Assembly: GCF_031851795.1 (NCBI RefSeq)
Contig: NZ_CP134696.1
Location: 4,732,501 to 4,796,500, forward strand
Reading direction: 5' to 3'
Length of the DNA stretch: 64,000 nt
From: Pontibacter sp. G13
GTDB taxonomy: Bacteria > Bacteroidota > Bacteroidia > J057
Each line of letters begins with the position of its first letter. The first letter of the stretch is position 1. Made by a program: the position numbers and the translations under genes. Below the pieces are notes generated by a model that made no database searches, was not told where the DNA came from, and worked only from the letters and a program-made list of their open reading frames with translations. This document shows positions 12,828 to 23,643 of this stretch, in pieces.

Positions 12828-12990
12828 CAAGGGTTAAAACCCTTGGTTGTGGGGTGTCGCGCCTACAGCGCTTTTAGATGGGGCAAGGGTTGAAACCCTA
12901 GCCTGTGGGGTGTCGCGCCTACAGCGCTTGTAAATGGTTCAAGGGTTAAAACCCTAGCCTGTGGGGTGTCGCGCCTATAGCGCTAGGATG
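12828..12990. repeat. 56-bp tandem repeat, three copies
   Basis: Copies start at 12828, 12884 and 12940 at a constant 56-bp period. Each contains an AGGGTT-AA-AACCCT palindrome or its one-base variant, then a GTGTCGCGCC core, then a (C/T)AGCGCT end. There is no unique spacer between units, so it is not a CRISPR array. It lies upstream of the glycosyltransferase start and resembles REP-like palindromes of Bacteroidota. Confidence 0.85.
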
Positions 12991-13846: not shown

Positions 13847-14286
13847 AGCACGGCTGCAGGAAAGGAAATTGCATGAATCGTTGTGGAAATAATCAACCCG
13901 ACATGCATAATATTTGATTTTTCGTTTCTTTCAAATCCGGTGTTTCAAGAGTTTTTTTGTTCGACATGTAGGGATTGAGGTGGAAGTGACTGATATTGAG
14001 GGCCTGAAATCGAATTACGGGTCGACATGGAAGGGAAGTTTTCATTCTGTAAAACAGAACCGAGTTGAATATAAAGACCTTGGATCTATCTGCCTACCTT
14101 TTCAAAGGTGAAAGGTTTTAGCCATTATTTCGGAATAAATCCTATTTACATAAATAGCTGAATATGAATATTATATATAGTTGAAACATTTTACCGTCAT
14201 TTCAATTCGTTTTTTCGTGTTGTTTTTCATCCGTTATTGCCCCCGATCATAGCCGGCACATGATCCTAATGACAACCACAAACAAC
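13847..14286. other. Gene-free AT-rich leader region
   Basis: Between the repeats and the large T9SS gene the sequence becomes markedly AT-rich (especially 14100-14220). It probably holds the promoter and 5' leader of the downstream gene. I found no convincing TAnnTTTG/TTTG promoter pair and no open frame worth annotating. Confidence 0.4.
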
Positions 14287-17200
14287 ATGAAAATGAATTA
14301 CCTTTTTAGGTTTATTCCCTTCCCTTCCCTTCCCTTCCCTTCCCTTCCCTTCCCTTCCCTTCCCTTCCCTTCCCTTCCCAAGACACGATTGTGCCTTGTG
14401 ATTCTGTGGATCATGGGGAGCTGGTCTGGTACGGCCTATGCACAGACTGACAGCATCAAACCCATTACCTATCCATCAGAGGCTGAATGCGGATATTACC
14501 TGGGATTGATGGAGGCGAAGGATCAATCCTTTTACCACATCACCGATACCATAGACCAGTTCTTTCGGGGATATGATTCCATCCCAAGGAAAGTCGCCAA
14601 GACCTATGGCCGATGGCGGGACTTCTGGGGAAAGCGGGCCGCCGCTGACGGAAACCTCCAGCAAGCCAACAACCACCTGCTGAACATCCTCTCGAGCAAA
14701 AGTCCCGCAGATAGGGACGCCTACCTCTGTGATCAGGACCCCTCGGACTGGTTACAGGTAGATCGAAATAACGCGACGAATAAAATGTCTGCCGGAATCC
14801 TGAATTGTGTATATAGTCCTCCTGGGGATGAAAACACCATCTATGTGGGTTCCAATACGGGTGGACTTTGGAAAACCACCGACATGGGGATTTCTTGGCA
14901 GAATATGACCGACGTTATAGGGTTGCCCGGATTGGGGGTATTGAGTATTGTTGGACATCCCGATCCTGACAGTTCTGATATCCTTTTTATCGCCACGGGA
15001 AATGGATCGGAGTTCAATGCCAATTTTGGCGCTGGTGTTTTCAGGACTACGGATGGAGGATCAAGCTGGGATCCAACAGCACTGAGTTGGCAGGAGGATG
15101 ATTCGCTACACAACTTTCTACTTTACAACAAAGAAGTCAAGAAACTCCTGATGCATCCCACCAATCCAGACATCATGTATGCGATGACAAGGACTGCGGT
15201 GTACAAGACTACGGATGGATGGCGTACAGATGCCCTAACGAATAAAATCTTCGAAACGTCACCAGTTCTCAGGTTTTGCTCGAAGGCAGTTCTTCCACAT
15301 TTGGGGGATATTGATATGCTTACGGGAAGACCCGATAGCGTGTATGTATCTCTTCAATATAACAGCATTTGTGGTATTCCCGCCATTTATCGATTGGCCG
15401 ATGGCGTCCCGGATCGAGAGGTGACACCTCCCAATTCCAATTCGAGAATTTATCTGATGGCGACTTCTCCTGCTGCTCCCAATACGCTTTGGGCGGCCTT
15501 CAGGGATTGGCAATCTGGAGGAGGAAAGGATTTCAATGGTGACTTACCTGTTGATAATCTAATTTACAAAAGCAATGATTTTGGCGCCACCTGGATTCAG
15601 GTATCCTTTAATCCTTCTATTTACCAACCTTTAGGTGATATATCAAATAAGGAAATTTGGCGTTCATCATTTCTTTCAATTATGCGCCCCGTTTTTGAAG
15701 TTAATCCTGCTGATACGATGATCATGTATTTTGGTGCGAATACCCTATTGCGTACAACAAATGGTGGCCTCACTTTACGACAAGTATCGGACTATGGAAG
15801 TCAAGTGACCCATGGCGATATCCGTGGGATGCAGATTTACCAAGGTGTTTCGGGAGGGAATGGAGATCGAGTTCTGATCGCCCATGATGGCGGGGTGAGT
15901 CGAAGAATTGCCTGGACAGATTTTAGTGCCTATTATTCCCAATGGAATAATTTGAATGGCCACGATCTCCAAATCAACCAGCACTTCGATATCGCGGCTT
16001 CCTCAAGTCATCCCAGTTTTGTTCTTGGAGGCGCACAAGACAATGGAACTCAAGTGATTTTCGATTCTGTTAAATCTCATCATATAGGGGGGGACGGAGG
16101 ACAAACTATCATCGATTGGCAGGATTCTAATATATGGCTAGCAAGATCAAATTCATCAATATTAAGATATCCAAGTATTGAAAAGTTGTTCAGTTGGTCA
16201 GCAAAAACATATCCGGGCCCCGATGGGGAATTTGAGCCATACCCTTTTGAGTTAGATCCATCTGATCACAATATCCTTTTTGCTGCAAGAACAAATAAAT
16301 TCTACAAATTTGAATTCTCTGGTGATTCTTTTTTTAATCAAAATACTACTAGGGAAATTATTCCGATTGATGGTTCGATTTCAAAATTCCCCGTCGATCT
16401 GGAAGTCGCCCCACTTTCCCCAACCGAAACGATGATCCTCATTTCCTATGAGGTGGGCAGCAACAAATCCCGCTCCCTGTTTAGATCGATGGACTCAGGC
16501 CAGACTTGGGAGAATATTTCTCCTTCCAATGGGTCAACCTATCTGTTTGGCAGTCAAATCAACACCATCGAGGTAGATCCAGATCATCCCAATCGGGTAT
16601 GGGTAGGCCTGGCCGACAAGGGGAAAGTATGGTACTCGGAGGATTATGGAGATACCTGGTCTCTCTTTGGCCCCGGACATTATTCGCATGGGAGCGGAGC
16701 CCCCCGGAATGGACGGACCCCTCCCCTTCCCGTACAAAGCCTCATCTATCAGCGCGGTTCGGACGATGTGATCTACCTCGCCAATGACTTGGGAGTATAT
16801 CGCTACAACAAGGCTTCGGACGAATGGGATTGCTTCCACTCGACCCTGCCTCCGATGATTGTCTCCGATCTGGAGATCGACTATTGCCAGGGATTGTTGT
16901 ATGCGGGTTCTTTCGGGCGTAGCACTTGGGCAACCCCGCTCCAACCCATCGGACCGGACACCATCGAGGCAGCACACCCATATCCGGGATCTGGCACCTA
17001 CCTCACCGATACGCTCTATGCACACGAGGTGGTCAACTATGCCAATGACATCGTCGTGCCTTCCGGAACCCAATGGGTGATTCAGGGGACGCTGAACATG
17101 GGGATCGGAAAACAAATCCACGTCATGCCCAATGCCAGACTCATCGTGGATGGCGGGACCATCACCAATCTGTGCGGAGATTATTGGGGAGGGATCAAGG

Positions 17201-19620
17201 TTCAGGGGGCCAAAGACTCCACCCAGTTCCCCTACGACTGGCCGCTCTACCAAGGATATGTCGAAGCGAGGAACCAGGCTGAGATCTCCTACGCCAGAGA
17301 CGCCATCTCCACCCATTTCCCCAAACCGAATGGCTGGCCTGATTGGTCGGGAGGAATTATCCGTGCGTATGATTCCCATTTCCACAACAACTGGCGGTCT
17401 GTAGAATTCATGAAATACGATGAACTCAACCAGAGTGTGTTCTCCAACTGCACATTCGAGGTGGATAGCTTGTTTAGGACGCCCGCGGATACAACCCAGT
17501 CATCGCCCTTCAATACCCATATCACCATGTGGGGGGTCGAGCGAGTCAGGATCAGGGGGTGCCGTTTCAGTGACAGCCGACCTATGGCGGTGTATGACCT
17601 GAATTTCAGCTCTGGGATTCGGACAAGCGATGCCAGTTTTGAAGTAGGGATTGCTTGCGCCGATCCGACCGTGACTCCGGGAAATACATGTCCTGCAAAT
17701 GACGTCATCCGTTCCTCATTCGAGGGATTTTCGCATGGCATCAAATCTTCCGGATCAGGCACACATAGAACGGTCCAGATATCCAACACTGACTTTTTCG
17801 GCAATGTGTTCGGAGTTGAACTTTCTGCGGTGGACAATGCCTCCGTGACCCGGTCCATCTTCGAGATTGGTGGGAATGGGCAGTCTGGGCTTCCTCTTTA
17901 TCAGGAGGGTATTTTCCTAGATGTCAGCTCGGATTTTGAGATAGAGGAAAATATTCTGAATCGAATTAATTCAACCTCAGGCCTTGTTTCCGGAATACGC
18001 GTTTCCAATGGAGGATTTGATGACAACCAGATCTACAACAATTCCTTGACAGGCTTGGATCGAGGGTTGATTGGAGAAGGAAGAAATCGGGAACTCCTCA
18101 ATGGCTTCTCCGGTTTGGTGTTCCTGTGTAACACCTTATCCTCCATGGAGGAAAACGCCATCAGGGTAATCCCAGACAATACCAATCCCAATCCCAATAA
18201 GCAAGGGATTCGGTGGCTGCAGGGCAACCCAACCGGTGACCCAGCCGGGAATGAATTCATTTCCACTTCAGGTTCCCTGAGTCATATTGCCAATTTTTCA
18301 GAAAAAATTGCCTATATCCATGCTCCGGGATACCCATATAGGCCCGAATATATCGACACCTCGAAGGTGACCCGCAATCAGGTGGAAACGGTTGCCACAT
18401 GTCCAGACAGGCAACCCTCGGATATCGTCTTGGAAAGATTCCTGCACCCAAACTTGACCAACGGGCAATGGCATACAGCCTATGATGCAGCGGAATCGGC
18501 CTATGGGAATGTCCTGTACAACTACCATCAATTGATCGACGGAGGAGATACCCCTTCATTGCTCGCACAAATTCAACAGGGATGGTCCCAGGATGCATGG
18601 GGACTCCGCAATATGCTGATGGCCGAATCTCCCTATCTTTCGCAATCGGTGTTGGAGGAGGTAGCCCTCAGTGGGGATCTCCCAGATGCCATGTTGCTGG
18701 AGGTTTGCCTCGCCAATCCCGAGGCGACCAAGTCGGAATCGTTTGTCGTCTTTCTGGAGACCGAGATCCCGAATCCGCTGCCCACCTATATGGGAGACTT
18801 GATCCGGGCCAATTGGACATCCACGTCTCCAAGAGGGATTCTTGAGCAGGAACTGATGACACATCTTTCAGAACTTACCTGGCTGGGAAATCAGTTCATT
18901 CGAGATGCCAAGATGGACCCTGCGGTCGGAGTGGATAGTGTAAGGTATTGGCTCGAGCGCCGCGGGACATTTGAAGATCACTATGCCCTGGTCGAGACCT
19001 ACATATCCACGGAGGCCTACGATTCCGCACAGACGGTTTTGGATTCTATCTTGGTTCGCTTTACGGGGACTTTGGAGGATGATCAATTGGTTACGGTGCA
19101 TGCTGCCTATTCCCAGCTTGTTTCGTGGCATCATCAGCGTGAAGTGGCGGGCATCCCATTGACAAATTTGTCCGGAGAACAGATTTCAGCTCTACGAAAT
19201 ATTGCGAGTTTGGAGGGAGGAAGGGCGTCCACCTTGGCGCAAAATATCCTCTGCTTCTTTCATGGGGAATGCGTGGAGCATCCGCAGTCCGAAATGGAAG
19301 GAGGTGCTTCTGCGCGGTTGTCGGGCCCATTGCCCGATCCGGTAGAATTGATCCGGGAATCCTACTATCAGGCACATGCATTTCCCAACCCGGGAGATGG
19401 CCACATCACCATAGAATGGTCAGTTGTGTCCATAGAGGGAGAATTGGAGCTACAGGTGCTGGACATCCAGGGCCGTCAGGTCACAACCCATTCGATTGGG
19501 GAAAAACAGGGCCAATGGCTCATCGATAGCAGGGATTTTCCATCGGGAACCTATTTTCACCGGTTGGTGGACGCCCAAGGAGAGATACTCGCTTCGGACA
19601 AGATCGTGATCATACATTGA
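14287..19620 (+). CDS. Giant T9SS cargo: Asp-box propeller plus parallel beta-helix, phase-variable leader
   Basis: A 1777-residue protein. The start at 14287 (MKMNYLFRF) is preferred; in-frame ATGs at 14260, 14269 and 14293 also exist. The leader holds FPSLP repeats encoded by (TTCCC)13, then KTR, a hydrophobic core, and a cleavage site at AYA/Q. Residues about 140-870 carry Asp-box (BNR) repeats such as GLWKTTDMGISWQ, GVFRTTDGGSSWD, LFRSMDSGQTWEN and VWYSEDYGDTWS, as in sortilin/VPS10 and xyloglucanase propellers. Residues about 900-1350 have the short-strand pattern of a right-handed parallel beta-helix, starting VIQGTLNMGIGKQI. The C-terminus is a type A T9SS sorting domain (AFPNPGDGHITIEW, LDIQGRQVTTH, FPSGTYFHRL). 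The substrate is unknown; a surface adhesin or glycan-binding role is inferred. A second T9SS gene follows after 50 bp. Confidence 0.82.
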   Translation: MKMNYLFRFIPFPSLPFPSLPFPSLPFPSLPKTRLCLVILWIMGSWSGTAYAQTDSIKPITYPSEAECGYYLGLMEAKDQSFYHITDTIDQFFRGYDSIPRKVAKTYGRWRDFWGKRAAADGNLQQANNHLLNILSSKSPADRDAYLCDQDPSDWLQVDRNNATNKMSAGILNCVYSPPGDENTIYVGSNTGGLWKTTDMGISWQNMTDVIGLPGLGVLSIVGHPDPDSSDILFIATGNGSEFNANFGAGVFRTTDGGSSWDPTALSWQEDDSLHNFLLYNKEVKKLLMHPTNPDIMYAMTRTAVYKTTDGWRTDALTNKIFETSPVLRFCSKAVLPHLGDIDMLTGRPDSVYVSLQYNSICGIPAIYRLADGVPDREVTPPNSNSRIYLMATSPAAPNTLWAAFRDWQSGGGKDFNGDLPVDNLIYKSNDFGATWIQVSFNPSIYQPLGDISNKEIWRSSFLSIMRPVFEVNPADTMIMYFGANTLLRTTNGGLTLRQVSDYGSQVTHGDIRGMQIYQGVSGGNGDRVLIAHDGGVSRRIAWTDFSAYYSQWNNLNGHDLQINQHFDIAASSSHPSFVLGGAQDNGTQVIFDSVKSHHIGGDGGQTIIDWQDSNIWLARSNSSILRYPSIEKLFSWSAKTYPGPDGEFEPYPFELDPSDHNILFAARTNKFYKFEFSGDSFFNQNTTREIIPIDGSISKFPVDLEVAPLSPTETMILISYEVGSNKSRSLFRSMDSGQTWENISPSNGSTYLFGSQINTIEVDPDHPNRVWVGLADKGKVWYSEDYGDTWSLFGPGHYSHGSGAPRNGRTPPLPVQSLIYQRGSDDVIYLANDLGVYRYNKASDEWDCFHSTLPPMIVSDLEIDYCQGLLYAGSFGRSTWATPLQPIGPDTIEAAHPYPGSGTYLTDTLYAHEVVNYANDIVVPSGTQWVIQGTLNMGIGKQIHVMPNARLIVDGGTITNLCGDYWGGIKVQGAKDSTQFPYDWPLYQGYVEARNQAEISYARDAISTHFPKPNGWPDWSGGIIRAYDSHFHNNWRSVEFMKYDELNQSVFSNCTFEVDSLFRTPADTTQSSPFNTHITMWGVERVRIRGCRFSDSRPMAVYDLNFSSGIRTSDASFEVGIACADPTVTPGNTCPANDVIRSSFEGFSHGIKSSGSGTHRTVQISNTDFFGNVFGVELSAVDNASVTRSIFEIGGNGQSGLPLYQEGIFLDVSSDFEIEENILNRINSTSGLVSGIRVSNGGFDDNQIYNNSLTGLDRGLIGEGRNRELLNGFSGLVFLCNTLSSMEENAIRVIPDNTNPNPNKQGIRWLQGNPTGDPAGNEFISTSGSLSHIANFSEKIAYIHAPGYPYRPEYIDTSKVTRNQVETVATCPDRQPSDIVLERFLHPNLTNGQWHTAYDAAESAYGNVLYNYHQLIDGGDTPSLLAQIQQGWSQDAWGLRNMLMAESPYLSQSVLEEVALSGDLPDAMLLEVCLANPEATKSESFVVFLETEIPNPLPTYMGDLIRANWTSTSPRGILEQELMTHLSELTWLGNQFIRDAKMDPAVGVDSVRYWLERRGTFEDHYALVETYISTEAYDSAQTVLDSILVRFTGTLEDDQLVTVHAAYSQLVSWHHQREVAGIPLTNLSGEQISALRNIASLEGGRASTLAQNILCFFHGECVEHPQSEMEGGASARLSGPLPDPVELIRESYYQAHAFPNPGDGHITIEWSVVSIEGELELQVLDIQGRQVTTHSIGEKQGQWLIDSRDFPSGTYFHRLVDAQGEILASDKIVIIH
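14315..14379 (+). repeat. Pentanucleotide tandem repeat (TTCCC)13 in a coding leader
   Basis: Thirteen perfect TTCCC units lie inside the signal-peptide coding region of the giant T9SS gene and encode FPSLP units. The tract has no stop in any frame. Five is not a multiple of three, so gain or loss of one unit shifts the frame. In the other two frames stops occur at 14399-14401 and 14448-14450. Only unit counts congruent to 13 modulo 3 give the full protein. Confidence 0.95.
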
Positions 19621-19670
19621 TTTACTTGCCCCGGTGGACCTCTGGGCCACTGGGGCCTAATGTTTCTGTT

Positions 19671-21086
19671 ATGTGGAAATACTGTCTTTACCTTTTGGCG
19701 CTTTGTCCCCATATACTATTCGGGCAGCCCCTCACCTTGGATACGACCTTCGTTCCGACCTTTGATTTTATGACACCCCCAACTCCTCCCGAAGGATATG
19801 TCTTACTGGAAGATGGTCAGGGGAGGATTTATCTAGGAGGTCGTTTGGGACTAAACGGGACGGCAAAGGGCATCATTCGGATGTATCCGGACGGGACTTG
19901 GGACCAGAGTTTCAAGGTGTCGGGCCAGTGGGGGATAGATGGTGTATCGGATCTTTTAATGATTGGGGACACCTTGCTGGTACATGATGATTTTCTTTTT
20001 CCGTTGAGTACCTCGGGAGCTTATTTGGGAAACTTGTTTCCAAAGGATAAAGTGTGCAGTGTCTATTCTCCCATGGAGTTGGATGATGGCCGGATTCTGA
20101 TAGGGGGAACTGGGTGTAAGTTCGACAGTATCCCAGTTCCGTACAATCGATTACGGCTCATGCGGCTTCATCGGGACGGGACCTTGGACTCCTCCTTCGT
20201 TCATGATGTCAATCATGCAGTCATGTCCCTGATGCGGTATGACGATACCCGGATCTTGGTTTATGGAAGGTACATCACCTTGTACGATTCGATCCCAGTC
20301 AACCAGCTTTTCCGGATTGACACGGCAGGGGTATTGGACACCACATTTCACAGTATCTTCACCAGTAACGGACATCCAACCTATGTCCAGCCCGATGGCA
20401 AGATTATGATCGGCGGGGGATTCAGGATTTCCGGTCATCCAGATCCATTGTCGCTGGTCCGACTTATGCCAGATGGAAGTCTGGATCCATCCTTCCACAA
20501 TTTCGCGGGAGCCGATTCCAGTTGGGGAGCTTCCGGCGTCGTTTACCCATTGGATGATGGAGGCTATCTGGTGGGCGGATTCTTTGATTCCTGGCAGGGG
20601 TATCCGCGTGGAAACATCGTGAAGATAGATAGCAGCGGGGTCATAGACCCCAACTATTTCAATGGGACCGGGGCTGATTCTACCTCCAAATTTTATCCTG
20701 TCATTTCTGATATCATACAGGGGCAGTCCGGAGATTTCTATGTCACCGGACTTTTCAATCGATATGATGGCCGGATTGTGGATCCCGTCATCCGCCTCCG
20801 TGGCTTCCAGTCCGTCTCCAACGACCCTCTGCTCCCGTCAATCTCCGCGACGCTATATCCCAATCCTGCCCAAGACCGGGCGATCCTGACGGTGTCGGAG
20901 CTGCCTCTCCGGTCCGTCTGTACATTGGTGATCCACGATGCCGTAGGTAGGGAGTGCCATCGGCAGGCCTTGTCCGGAACACGAGCCGAGATCGACCTCG
21001 AAGGCTGGGAATCGGGCGTGTACCTCGCCACGCTGGAGACCGAGGCCGGGGCGCTATGGCACGGCAAGCTGGTGGTGGGACGGTAG
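19671..21086 (+). CDS. T9SS-sorted secreted protein with delta-60 repeats
   Basis: A 471-residue protein. The start at 19671 (MWKYCLYLLALCPHILFGQ) gives a clean signal peptide. Residues about 20-390 contain delta-60 repeats, recognised by the recurring G-x-L-D-x-x-F units: GTWDQSFKV, GTLDSSFVHD, GVLDTTFHS, GSLDPSFHN and GVIDPNYFNG. Each is followed by a QPDGKIMIGGGF-type strand. Delta-60 proteins are predicted beta propellers secreted by Bacteroidota. The last 75 residues form a type A T9SS sorting domain (LYPNPAQDRAILTV, VIHDAVGRECHR, WESGVYLATLE, GKLVVG). It begins 50 bp after the giant phase-variable gene on the same strand and is probably cotranscribed. If so, it would be subject to polarity when that gene is off. 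Confidence 0.83.
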   Translation: MWKYCLYLLALCPHILFGQPLTLDTTFVPTFDFMTPPTPPEGYVLLEDGQGRIYLGGRLGLNGTAKGIIRMYPDGTWDQSFKVSGQWGIDGVSDLLMIGDTLLVHDDFLFPLSTSGAYLGNLFPKDKVCSVYSPMELDDGRILIGGTGCKFDSIPVPYNRLRLMRLHRDGTLDSSFVHDVNHAVMSLMRYDDTRILVYGRYITLYDSIPVNQLFRIDTAGVLDTTFHSIFTSNGHPTYVQPDGKIMIGGGFRISGHPDPLSLVRLMPDGSLDPSFHNFAGADSSWGASGVVYPLDDGGYLVGGFFDSWQGYPRGNIVKIDSSGVIDPNYFNGTGADSTSKFYPVISDIIQGQSGDFYVTGLFNRYDGRIVDPVIRLRGFQSVSNDPLLPSISATLYPNPAQDRAILTVSELPLRSVCTLVIHDAVGRECHRQALSGTRAEIDLEGWESGVYLATLETEAGALWHGKLVVGR

Positions 21087-21894: not shown

Positions 21895-23643
21895 CTAGCA
21901 AACTGCATTGGAGAATCGCTGGCGACGGCGGTAAGGGAATACGTCCACAATCTCTTTGTTGATCTGCTTTTGTTGCATGTCGATCCAGAATTTGGGCTCG
22001 AATAGATCCGCATGCAATTCGAAGAAAATCTCGCGTATGTCCTCGCGCCCGATTAGGAAATGCTTGAATTCCTCCGGAAAGACATCATTGGGCCCCACGG
22101 CAAACCAAGGCCCCGATGCATAGATGTCCTCCGGGCCCTCCGCCTCGGGAAGCCACCTGAAATGATAGTCGGTGAGGAAGCCGATTTCGTCATAGTCGTA
22201 GAACACGACGCGGCGATGGCGCGTGACTCCGAAATTCTTCAGGAGCATGTCGCCCGGGAAGATGTTGGCAGCGGCCAATTGCTTGATCGTATTGCCGTAT
22301 TCTTCGACGACTTCCTCTGCTTCGTCGGGATTGGCATCCTCCAGAAACAGGTTCAAAGGGGTCATCTTGCGCTCGGTGTACAGGTGATCTATGACGACAT
22401 GCTCGTCCGTGAGGTGGATGATGCTGGACGCGACTGTCAGGAGTTCGTCGATCAACTCTTGGGAAAAGCGCTCTCGCGGAAATACAAAGTGCTCAAACTC
22501 ATGTGTATCGGCCATCCGTCCCACTCGGTCGTGCATGGAAACCAGTTTGTATCGGGATTTGACGTGAGCCTTGTTGGTGGTTTTGGGTGGATCGAATTGA
22601 TCCTTGATGAGCTTGAACACGATGTTGTAGCTGGGCAAGGTAAACACAGACATGACCATGCCTTTGATCCCCGGGGCAATCACGAACTGGTCTGTGGACG
22701 ACTTGAGGTGCTGGACGAAATTGCGGTACATCTCGGTCTTGCCATGCTTGCTGAACCCGATGGAGTTGTACAGATCTCCATAGGGTTTTTCTGGCATGAT
22801 GGTCTTGAGGAAATGGACAAATTCAGAGGGAATGGACACGTCCACCATGAAGTACGACCGGGTAAAACTGAAAATGATCGAAGCAGTGTCGGTATCGGTG
22901 ATGAGTGTATCTGCGAATACCCCATTCTGGTTGTGAAGCAGTGGGATGATGAAGGGCAGATACCGATCCGAAATCCAGAATCTCCCCACGACATAAGCGC
23001 CCTTGTTGCGGTAAAACACCGATTCCAGCAGGTCAATATGGCTCTCCTTGTCGGGCTTGTAGGAAAAAAGGACATCCTCTTCCAAGCGTCCGGAAATATA
23101 GGCGGCATCGCGGGAGACATCCTCAAATTCGCCCTTGATGGGAAGTGACAGCAGCAGTTTCTCCATCAACTTGACATTGGGTTCCTGCCATTCAAATCGT
23201 CTGAAAATCGGAGCTTCGGAGCGAAATTCGCGGTGGAGATGCTCATCCTCGACAAACATGCAGTCGATGTCCGCGCCCATGTTGCCGATTACTTTTCGGC
23301 AGACGGAATTGTAAAAGGATTCGGAGAGTTCGTATTCGTAGCGCAACAAGGAAAGGGCTTTGTATTGCGCTTTGACCAATTGCCAGAGGGAATCGTTGGC
23401 GGCATCTTTTCCCATTTCTCGCTGGATCTTGCGAGCAATTCTGGAGATGCGGCGCTTGTAGAGGGACATGCGTTTTTTTTGGTCAGCTTGAATCCCGTGC
23501 CAATCGCGGTTTTGAAAGCGGATAGGGGCACGGGCTGTGACCTCGCGGAAGTCCCACATGTATTGATCGAAATCTTGGACGATCAGGTGAGCGATCTGGG
23601 AAGCCAATTCATGCGGTTCCCGATTCCCTTGCAGCTGTTCCAT
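21895..23643 (-). CDS. aceK: Isocitrate dehydrogenase kinase/phosphatase AceK
   Basis: A 582-residue protein colinear with AceK. This bifunctional cytoplasmic enzyme phosphorylates and dephosphorylates isocitrate dehydrogenase, steering flux into the glyoxylate shunt. The kinase-like P-loop is APGIKGMVMSVFTLPSYN, followed by the ATP-contacting K344 in IVFKLIKDQF. The catalytic segment has D465 (PGDMLLKNFG) and D483 in FYDYDEIG. The 18-residue spacing matches the functional Asp pair of the E. coli enzyme. The length matches the family. It is the last gene of a three-gene minus-strand run tetR-aarF-aceK, 46 bp after aarF, so its expression is probably tied to that regulator. AceK is best known from proteobacteria with aceBA; no isocitrate lyase or malate synthase gene is in this window. 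Confidence 0.95.
   Translation of the reverse strand: MEQLQGNREPHELASQIAHLIVQDFDQYMWDFREVTARAPIRFQNRDWHGIQADQKKRMSLYKRRISRIARKIQREMGKDAANDSLWQLVKAQYKALSLLRYEYELSESFYNSVCRKVIGNMGADIDCMFVEDEHLHREFRSEAPIFRRFEWQEPNVKLMEKLLLSLPIKGEFEDVSRDAAYISGRLEEDVLFSYKPDKESHIDLLESVFYRNKGAYVVGRFWISDRYLPFIIPLLHNQNGVFADTLITDTDTASIIFSFTRSYFMVDVSIPSEFVHFLKTIMPEKPYGDLYNSIGFSKHGKTEMYRNFVQHLKSSTDQFVIAPGIKGMVMSVFTLPSYNIVFKLIKDQFDPPKTTNKAHVKSRYKLVSMHDRVGRMADTHEFEHFVFPRERFSQELIDELLTVASSIIHLTDEHVVIDHLYTERKMTPLNLFLEDANPDEAEEVVEEYGNTIKQLAAANIFPGDMLLKNFGVTRHRRVVFYDYDEIGFLTDYHFRWLPEAEGPEDIYASGPWFAVGPNDVFPEEFKHFLIGREDIREIFFELHADLFEPKFWIDMQQKQINKEIVDVFPYRRRQRFSNAVC

Follow-up and report, generated by a model that had tools for sequence, protein, structure and literature searches.

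The question raised by this locus is whether a pentanucleotide repeat in the leader codons of a predicted type IX secretion system (T9SS) cargo gene switches that gene between an ON and an OFF state. The gene lies in a 64,000-nucleotide stretch of the Pontibacter sp. G13 genome, which was analyzed as a whole and is termed the window. Read from the sequence, the tract is probably a translational contingency locus in which slipped-strand events would produce ON and OFF states, built like Neisseria opa. The features on which this reading is based are the following.

14260 to 19620, plus strand: T9SS cargo open reading frame, with a Sortilin-Vps10/BNR-type region followed by a C-terminal module common to the homologs (query residue ~920 onward)
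14287 to 14314, plus strand: likely start region with in-frame ATGs at 14287 and 14293 (also 14260 and 14269) and the n-region M-N-Y-L-F-R-F, the start being presumed
14315 to 14379, plus strand: perfect (TTCCC)13 tract, read directly from the sequence
14380 to 14442, plus strand: core of the signal peptide with its cleavage region KTRLCLVILWIMGSWSGTAYA, the cut being placed before Gln 14443 by inspection
14399 to 14401, plus strand: stop reached from ATG 14293 at 14 units, by frame re-reading
14448 to 14450, plus strand: stop reached from ATG 14293 at 12 units, by frame re-reading
19381 to 19611, plus strand: Por_Secre_tail (PF18962) T9SS sorting domain, residues 1708-1784 (Pfam, NCBIfam)
19617 to 21086, plus strand: downstream T9SS delta-60/DUF5122 gene, first ATG at 19671

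Reading frame across the TTCCC tract

The tract is placed after four in-frame ATGs and immediately before the signal-peptide core. The ATGs at 14260, 14269, 14287 and 14293 share one frame, the other two frames are closed upstream by stops at 14294 and 14307, and neither of them contains an ATG, GTG or TTG between those stops and the tract. The repeat is perfect, has a unit that is not a multiple of three, and lies in the reading frame near the start with early termination of both other frames. Re-reading the gene with n = 6 to 20 TTCCC units leaves the full open reading frame intact at n = 7, 10, 13, 16 and 19, and the other ten counts give products of 27-71 amino acids from the three ATGs tried; from ATG 14293 the product is 50 amino acids at 12 units and 37 at 14 units. 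The assembled genome, with 13 units, is in the ON state. The original prediction of thirteen perfect units at 14315-14379, of stops at 14399-14401 and 14448-14450 closing the alternative frames (at 14 and 12 units, respectively, from ATG 14293), and of an ON state only at counts congruent to 13 modulo 3 is borne out by these readings. It had also named a true start downstream of the tract as one circumstance that would speak against it. Past the tract, in-frame start codons up to the end of the core are limited to TTG 14389, GTG 14398 and ATG 14413, and because all three sit inside the core a downstream start is unlikely.

In the proposed mechanism, TTCCC units would be gained or lost via slipped-strand mispairing in replication, and every single-unit step shifts the start codon and n-region into a different frame from the signal-peptide core and the rest of the protein. 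Because each step breaks the frame, one unit count in three is ON, and the OFF state would be without product. A pyrimidine-only repeat could be tolerated in the signal peptide while its length varies because in every frame it yields only Phe, Pro, Ser and Leu codons and no stop; the G runs in the G155 and G251 leaders described below are exceptions to the pyrimidine-only coding strand. The complementary strand reads (GGGAA)13, and it is a matter of speculation that the 13 GGG runs of this minus strand could in principle form G-quadruplexes and raise instability. The benefit of switching would be random display of the surface cargo.

The tract is a rare object in its sequence context. No pentamer run of more than three units arises in 60 sequences of 64 kb simulated with a first-order Markov model, and TTCCC at four or more units has a single occurrence in the whole 7.67-Mb genome, which is this tract. 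Searches with (TTCCC)6 in 22 genomes of the order and with (TTCCC)5 in 395 genomes of the class each match one genome, in both cases at this tract. With SSR thresholds set at a C/G run of 8, an A/T run of 9 and dinucleotide, trinucleotide, tetranucleotide and longer units at 6, 5, 4 and 3 copies, the sample of the source genome (the window plus L057-L116) contains 5 SSRs in 442,788 bases with this tract included and is SSR-poor.

The cargo protein and the downstream gene

The open reading frame encodes 1786 amino acids from ATG 14260, 1777 from 14287 and 1775 from 14293, the second of these matching the 1777-residue protein first described. Pfam at E <= 0.01 returns Sortilin-Vps10 and Por_Secre_tail, both above cut-off, and nothing else; Por_Secre_tail scores 34 bits against a cut-off of 27 and TIGR04183 scores 25.2 against 23. 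From PF18962 the product is predicted to be a type IX secreted protein. The delta-60 protein has its own PF18962 sorting domain, also above cut-off, and the earlier assignment to T9SS cargo is confirmed by the domain in both proteins; PF18962 has at least 150 matches in the source genome. The first in-frame ATG of the delta-60 gene lies 50 bp past the cargo stop ending at 19620, and the 50-bp spacing originally given holds for this ATG; read from TTG 19617, the open frame overlaps the stop. A PDB sequence search with the cargo protein gives one weak BNR match (3b7f, E 2e-4). Four weak relatives found by searching the source-genome contigs (L032-L035, 21-29% identity over the propeller part) were not used.

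Elsewhere in the window, 2.8 tandem copies of a 56-base unit (90% match) with an inner inverted repeat AAGGGTTAAAACCCTT are located at 12828-12984, at the start of a glycosyltransferase open reading frame on the minus strand, and the isocitrate dehydrogenase kinase/phosphatase AceK is encoded at 21895-23643, also on the minus strand. An Rfam scan of the 64-kb window gives nothing at the gathering threshold.

Leader repeats in homologous genes

The comparison genomes comprise 13 of the family (~83 Mb together) and 22 of the order, with one of the genus. Two near-full-length orthologs are present in the family (G005 and G012), each 39% identical to the cargo protein, and in both cases the next gene is related to the delta-60 gene (BLASTP 36%, E 2e-88, and 33%, E 4e-41). 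The G012 ortholog has a (TC)10 tract in the same leader position, with an ATG and the residues MNRL before the tract out of frame with the body, which resumes past the tract as LMLGLHLAYGQ. This leader tract is the only (CT)>=8 among the 13 family genomes, and the chance that the single such tract of a 6.6-Mb genome falls in a given 300-base leader on the right strand is ~2e-5 by rough arithmetic. The G005 ortholog leader MKTTQKWLISLLLLSCLTYTTGYSQ is plain and without a repeat. A DNA invertase in place of the repeat at G005 was considered and dropped, the neighboring recombinase being a resolvase beside a Tn3 transposase; these two genes lie immediately upstream of the ortholog (L036 7337-11011). 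In G009, a C11 run is found within the coding part of another T9SS-like open reading frame, far from its start (L046 8743-8753).

Of the 395 genomes of the class, 25 match the cargo protein at E <= 1e-60, many of the matches covering the C-terminal part only (query residues from ~920), and of the 45 genomes of g25, the genus of G170, 21 match the G170 homolog at E <= 1e-80. The frame of each homolog was anchored on its body match, and the leader was taken as 50 bases before to 250 bases after the open-frame start. This one rule finds an SSR in the leaders of 16 of the 49 homologs, with C, G, TC, CCTT and TTCCC as units, and none in the other 33, doubtful starts (G225:C3, G420:C7, G423:C2 and G241:C4, for example) being scored as misses. 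Within g25 these are 13 of 30 homologs (C8 to C23, G12, and (CCTT)12 in G415:C78), and outside it they are this gene and 2 of 18 others, (TC)10 in G012 and G10 in G155:C29. A G9 run in G251:C88 lies past the 250-base limit and is extra to the 16. The set excludes copies at a contig end, truncated or unretrieved (G318:C80, G317:C229, G210:C51, G005:C1055, G426, G357:C18, G357:C206 and G401, the last being 93% identical to the G170 homolog on a contig that stops short of the leader) and the copies in G002, G003, G008 and G009.

Other T9SS cargo genes scored by the same rule carry a leader SSR in 0 of 104 cases in the source genome and in 0 of 96 in G170, the latter result rejecting, for that genome, repeats as a general property of g25 cargo leaders. 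These control leaders come from two genomes only, with 105 cargo leaders examined among at least 150 places in the source genome and 96 of 122 picked from 148 listed in G170. Fisher tests of 15 of 48 homologs (this gene left out) against 0 of 200 controls give p = 3e-12, and of 2 of 18 outside g25 against the same controls p = 0.006, both values being too small because the homologs are related. The background of C/G runs of at least 8 varies from none in G000 and 3 in 360,252 sampled bases of G170 to 10 in 400,000 in G423, and even this last and highest value corresponds to ~1 run every 40 kb, compared with the 300 bases of a leader window. Tracts of (CT)9 are present in 18 of the 198 class genomes searched. 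Only one of the 17 such loci classified (L152-L168) is at the beginning of an open reading frame that has a signal-like stretch, so there is no general link between dinucleotide tracts and leaders. That locus, in G182, is a (CT)22 tract at the start of an open reading frame continuing into the signal-like stretch (L154 1501-1544), and G182 is absent from the 25 genomes matching the cargo protein in the class search.

Two further repeat arrangements are noted. A row of T9SS cargo genes in G170 (339-360-codon frames, minus strand) has (AG) tracts of 22, 15, 36 and 14 units outside the leader windows (L205 838-881, 3076-3105, 5270-5341 and 9671-9698), which could be a promoter-type phase-variable array. 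G423 has a G20 and then a C25 run nearly back to back (L291 1373-1420).

An upstream ATG is open to the tract in 15 of 17 cases, this gene and G251:C88 counted; the other two, G318:C130 (C23, near scaffold Ns) and G421:C39, have no such ATG and are scored as SSRs without a state. By the nearest ATG, this gene and G251:C88 are ON and the remaining 13 of the 15 assignable tracts are OFF, where chance would put two thirds in that state (P = 0.08 for 13 or more of 15). In two OFF cases, G251:C86 and G424, an in-frame ATG lies further upstream, and in a third, G357:C239, an in-frame Met after the tract is a possible signal-peptide start by itself. Assembly errors in C runs, or pseudogenes, could contribute to this excess. 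The (TC)10 and (CCTT)12 tracts are of a kind less prone to assembly errors than C runs.

The repeat trait was placed on a tree of the C-terminal module for 41 of the 49 homologs (G241:C4, G251:C88, G225:C3, G420:C7, G423:C2, G412:C100, G409:C76 and G155:C12 left out), where it requires 10 changes, all 10 forced by starred branches, and its clustering is at most weak (42 of 500 shuffles as low). In eight aligned g25 leaders, all from different species, the C tract occupies one column block, with C runs of 8 to 15 in seven leaders (in one of these split into C10 and C9) and an interrupted run in the eighth, L284. Tree and alignment together indicate that the repeat stays in place as its unit and length change. 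The G170 homolog (L138 1495-5340, P0003) carries, ahead of the shared C-terminal module, the motif HEFMHAMDLTH, presumably akin to a zinc metallopeptidase motif, with no Pfam match at E <= 0.01, and the cargo family seems to consist of different heads on one tail.

The strongest of the alternative explanations, itself improbable, is that the tract acts as a tuner, the ON lengths of 10, 13 and 16 units grading secretion through five n-region residues per step with the OFF state as a by-product. An insert does extend the part ahead of the core, and the frame is open at 7, 10, 13, 16 and 19 units; however, the repeat units of the homologs are one, two or four nucleotides long, and 13 of the 15 assignable tracts are OFF when read from the nearest ATG, which argues for ON/OFF control and not for grading. 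Still less probable is translation from TTG 14389 or GTG 14398 with the tract untranslated and acting on transcription or mRNA only. Such a start would drop K-T-R and leave no basic n-region, the nearest ATG in G012 is upstream of the tract with M-N-R-L preceding it, and in G170, G072, G028 and G412:C100 a hydrophobic leader beginning at an ATG continues straight into the tract. In its favor are the in-frame position of both codons, a hairpin predicted next to the tract when the minus strand is folded (z -5.2 for the whole stretch) and the in-frame Met past the tract in G357:C239. A functionless neutral expansion or assembly artefact, to which the single genome of the genus in the comparison set lends some weight, is the least probable of the three and very unlikely, given the scarcity of SSRs in the sampled genome (5 tracts in 442,788 bases) and the location, in two orthologous leaders, of two different tracts that exact pattern searches find just once per genome.

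The presence of different repeats in the homolog leaders favors the reading as an ON/OFF switch, and different slippery repeats at the same place in some relatives suggest that the switch itself is favored. That slippage switches the protein, as first proposed, agrees with both the frame arithmetic and the homolog leader repeats, and the tract stands as a candidate switch. The TTCCC tract is probably a real, functional contingency locus and one of a recurrent set. On balance, and with a good deal less assurance than for the tract itself, the C-terminal-module cargo family with its differing heads appears to be under recurrent, class-wide selection for signal-peptide phase variation, recruiting whatever repeats are available (C, G, TC, CCTT, TTCCC) and mostly OFF in the sampled assemblies.

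Relation to known phase-variable systems

SSR contingency loci are textbook features of host-adapted Proteobacteria. The closest parallel is Neisseria opa, for which excerpts of two papers describe a CTCTT pentamer coding repeat in the leader/signal sequence whose unit number sets the frame (PMC3960869, PMC13183285). As far as those excerpts go, in both systems the leader codons of a surface protein contain a repeat with a five-base unit, and the unit count decides the frame. The present locus differs in belonging to another phylum, in an unrelated protein (a propeller-type region plus a T9SS tail) with predicted T9SS export, and in having homologs that use five kinds of unit; an Opa outer-membrane barrel is not found in the cargo protein (Pfam, E <= 0.01). 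The SSR contingency loci of Haemophilus, Campylobacter and Helicobacter likewise have in-frame repeats switching surface genes, but no T9SS cargo is found there among titles and abstract openings. Within Bacteroidota, surface traits of Bacteroides vary in phase by invertase-driven DNA inversion, according to excerpts of PMC11868660 and PMC8698959. The likeness is surface phase variation in the same phylum, and the difference, as these excerpts describe it, is recombinase DNA inversion there and probable repeat slippage here; the words Flavobacter and type IX are absent from the review PMC11868660. The excerpted parts of PMC9862357, PMC3796261, PMC8698959 and PMC10450907 concern other genes.

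The original prediction held a pentamer tract in a T9SS leader to be an undescribed class. In its architecture this does not stand, Neisseria opa being built in the same way in the portions of the literature cited above. For T9SS cargo it may stand, in that no report of repeat-driven phase variation was found among the titles and abstract openings listed from an open-licence library, which is weak evidence.

The occurrence of repeats of different units in the leaders of some homologous T9SS cargo genes across the class suggests that random display is probably what selection keeps. If the proposed switch is true, random display of a surface protein would be selected in this bacterial group as well, with phage, predators, competitors and surface binding as candidate selective forces, and a simple read-based test would be possible in existing long-read data.
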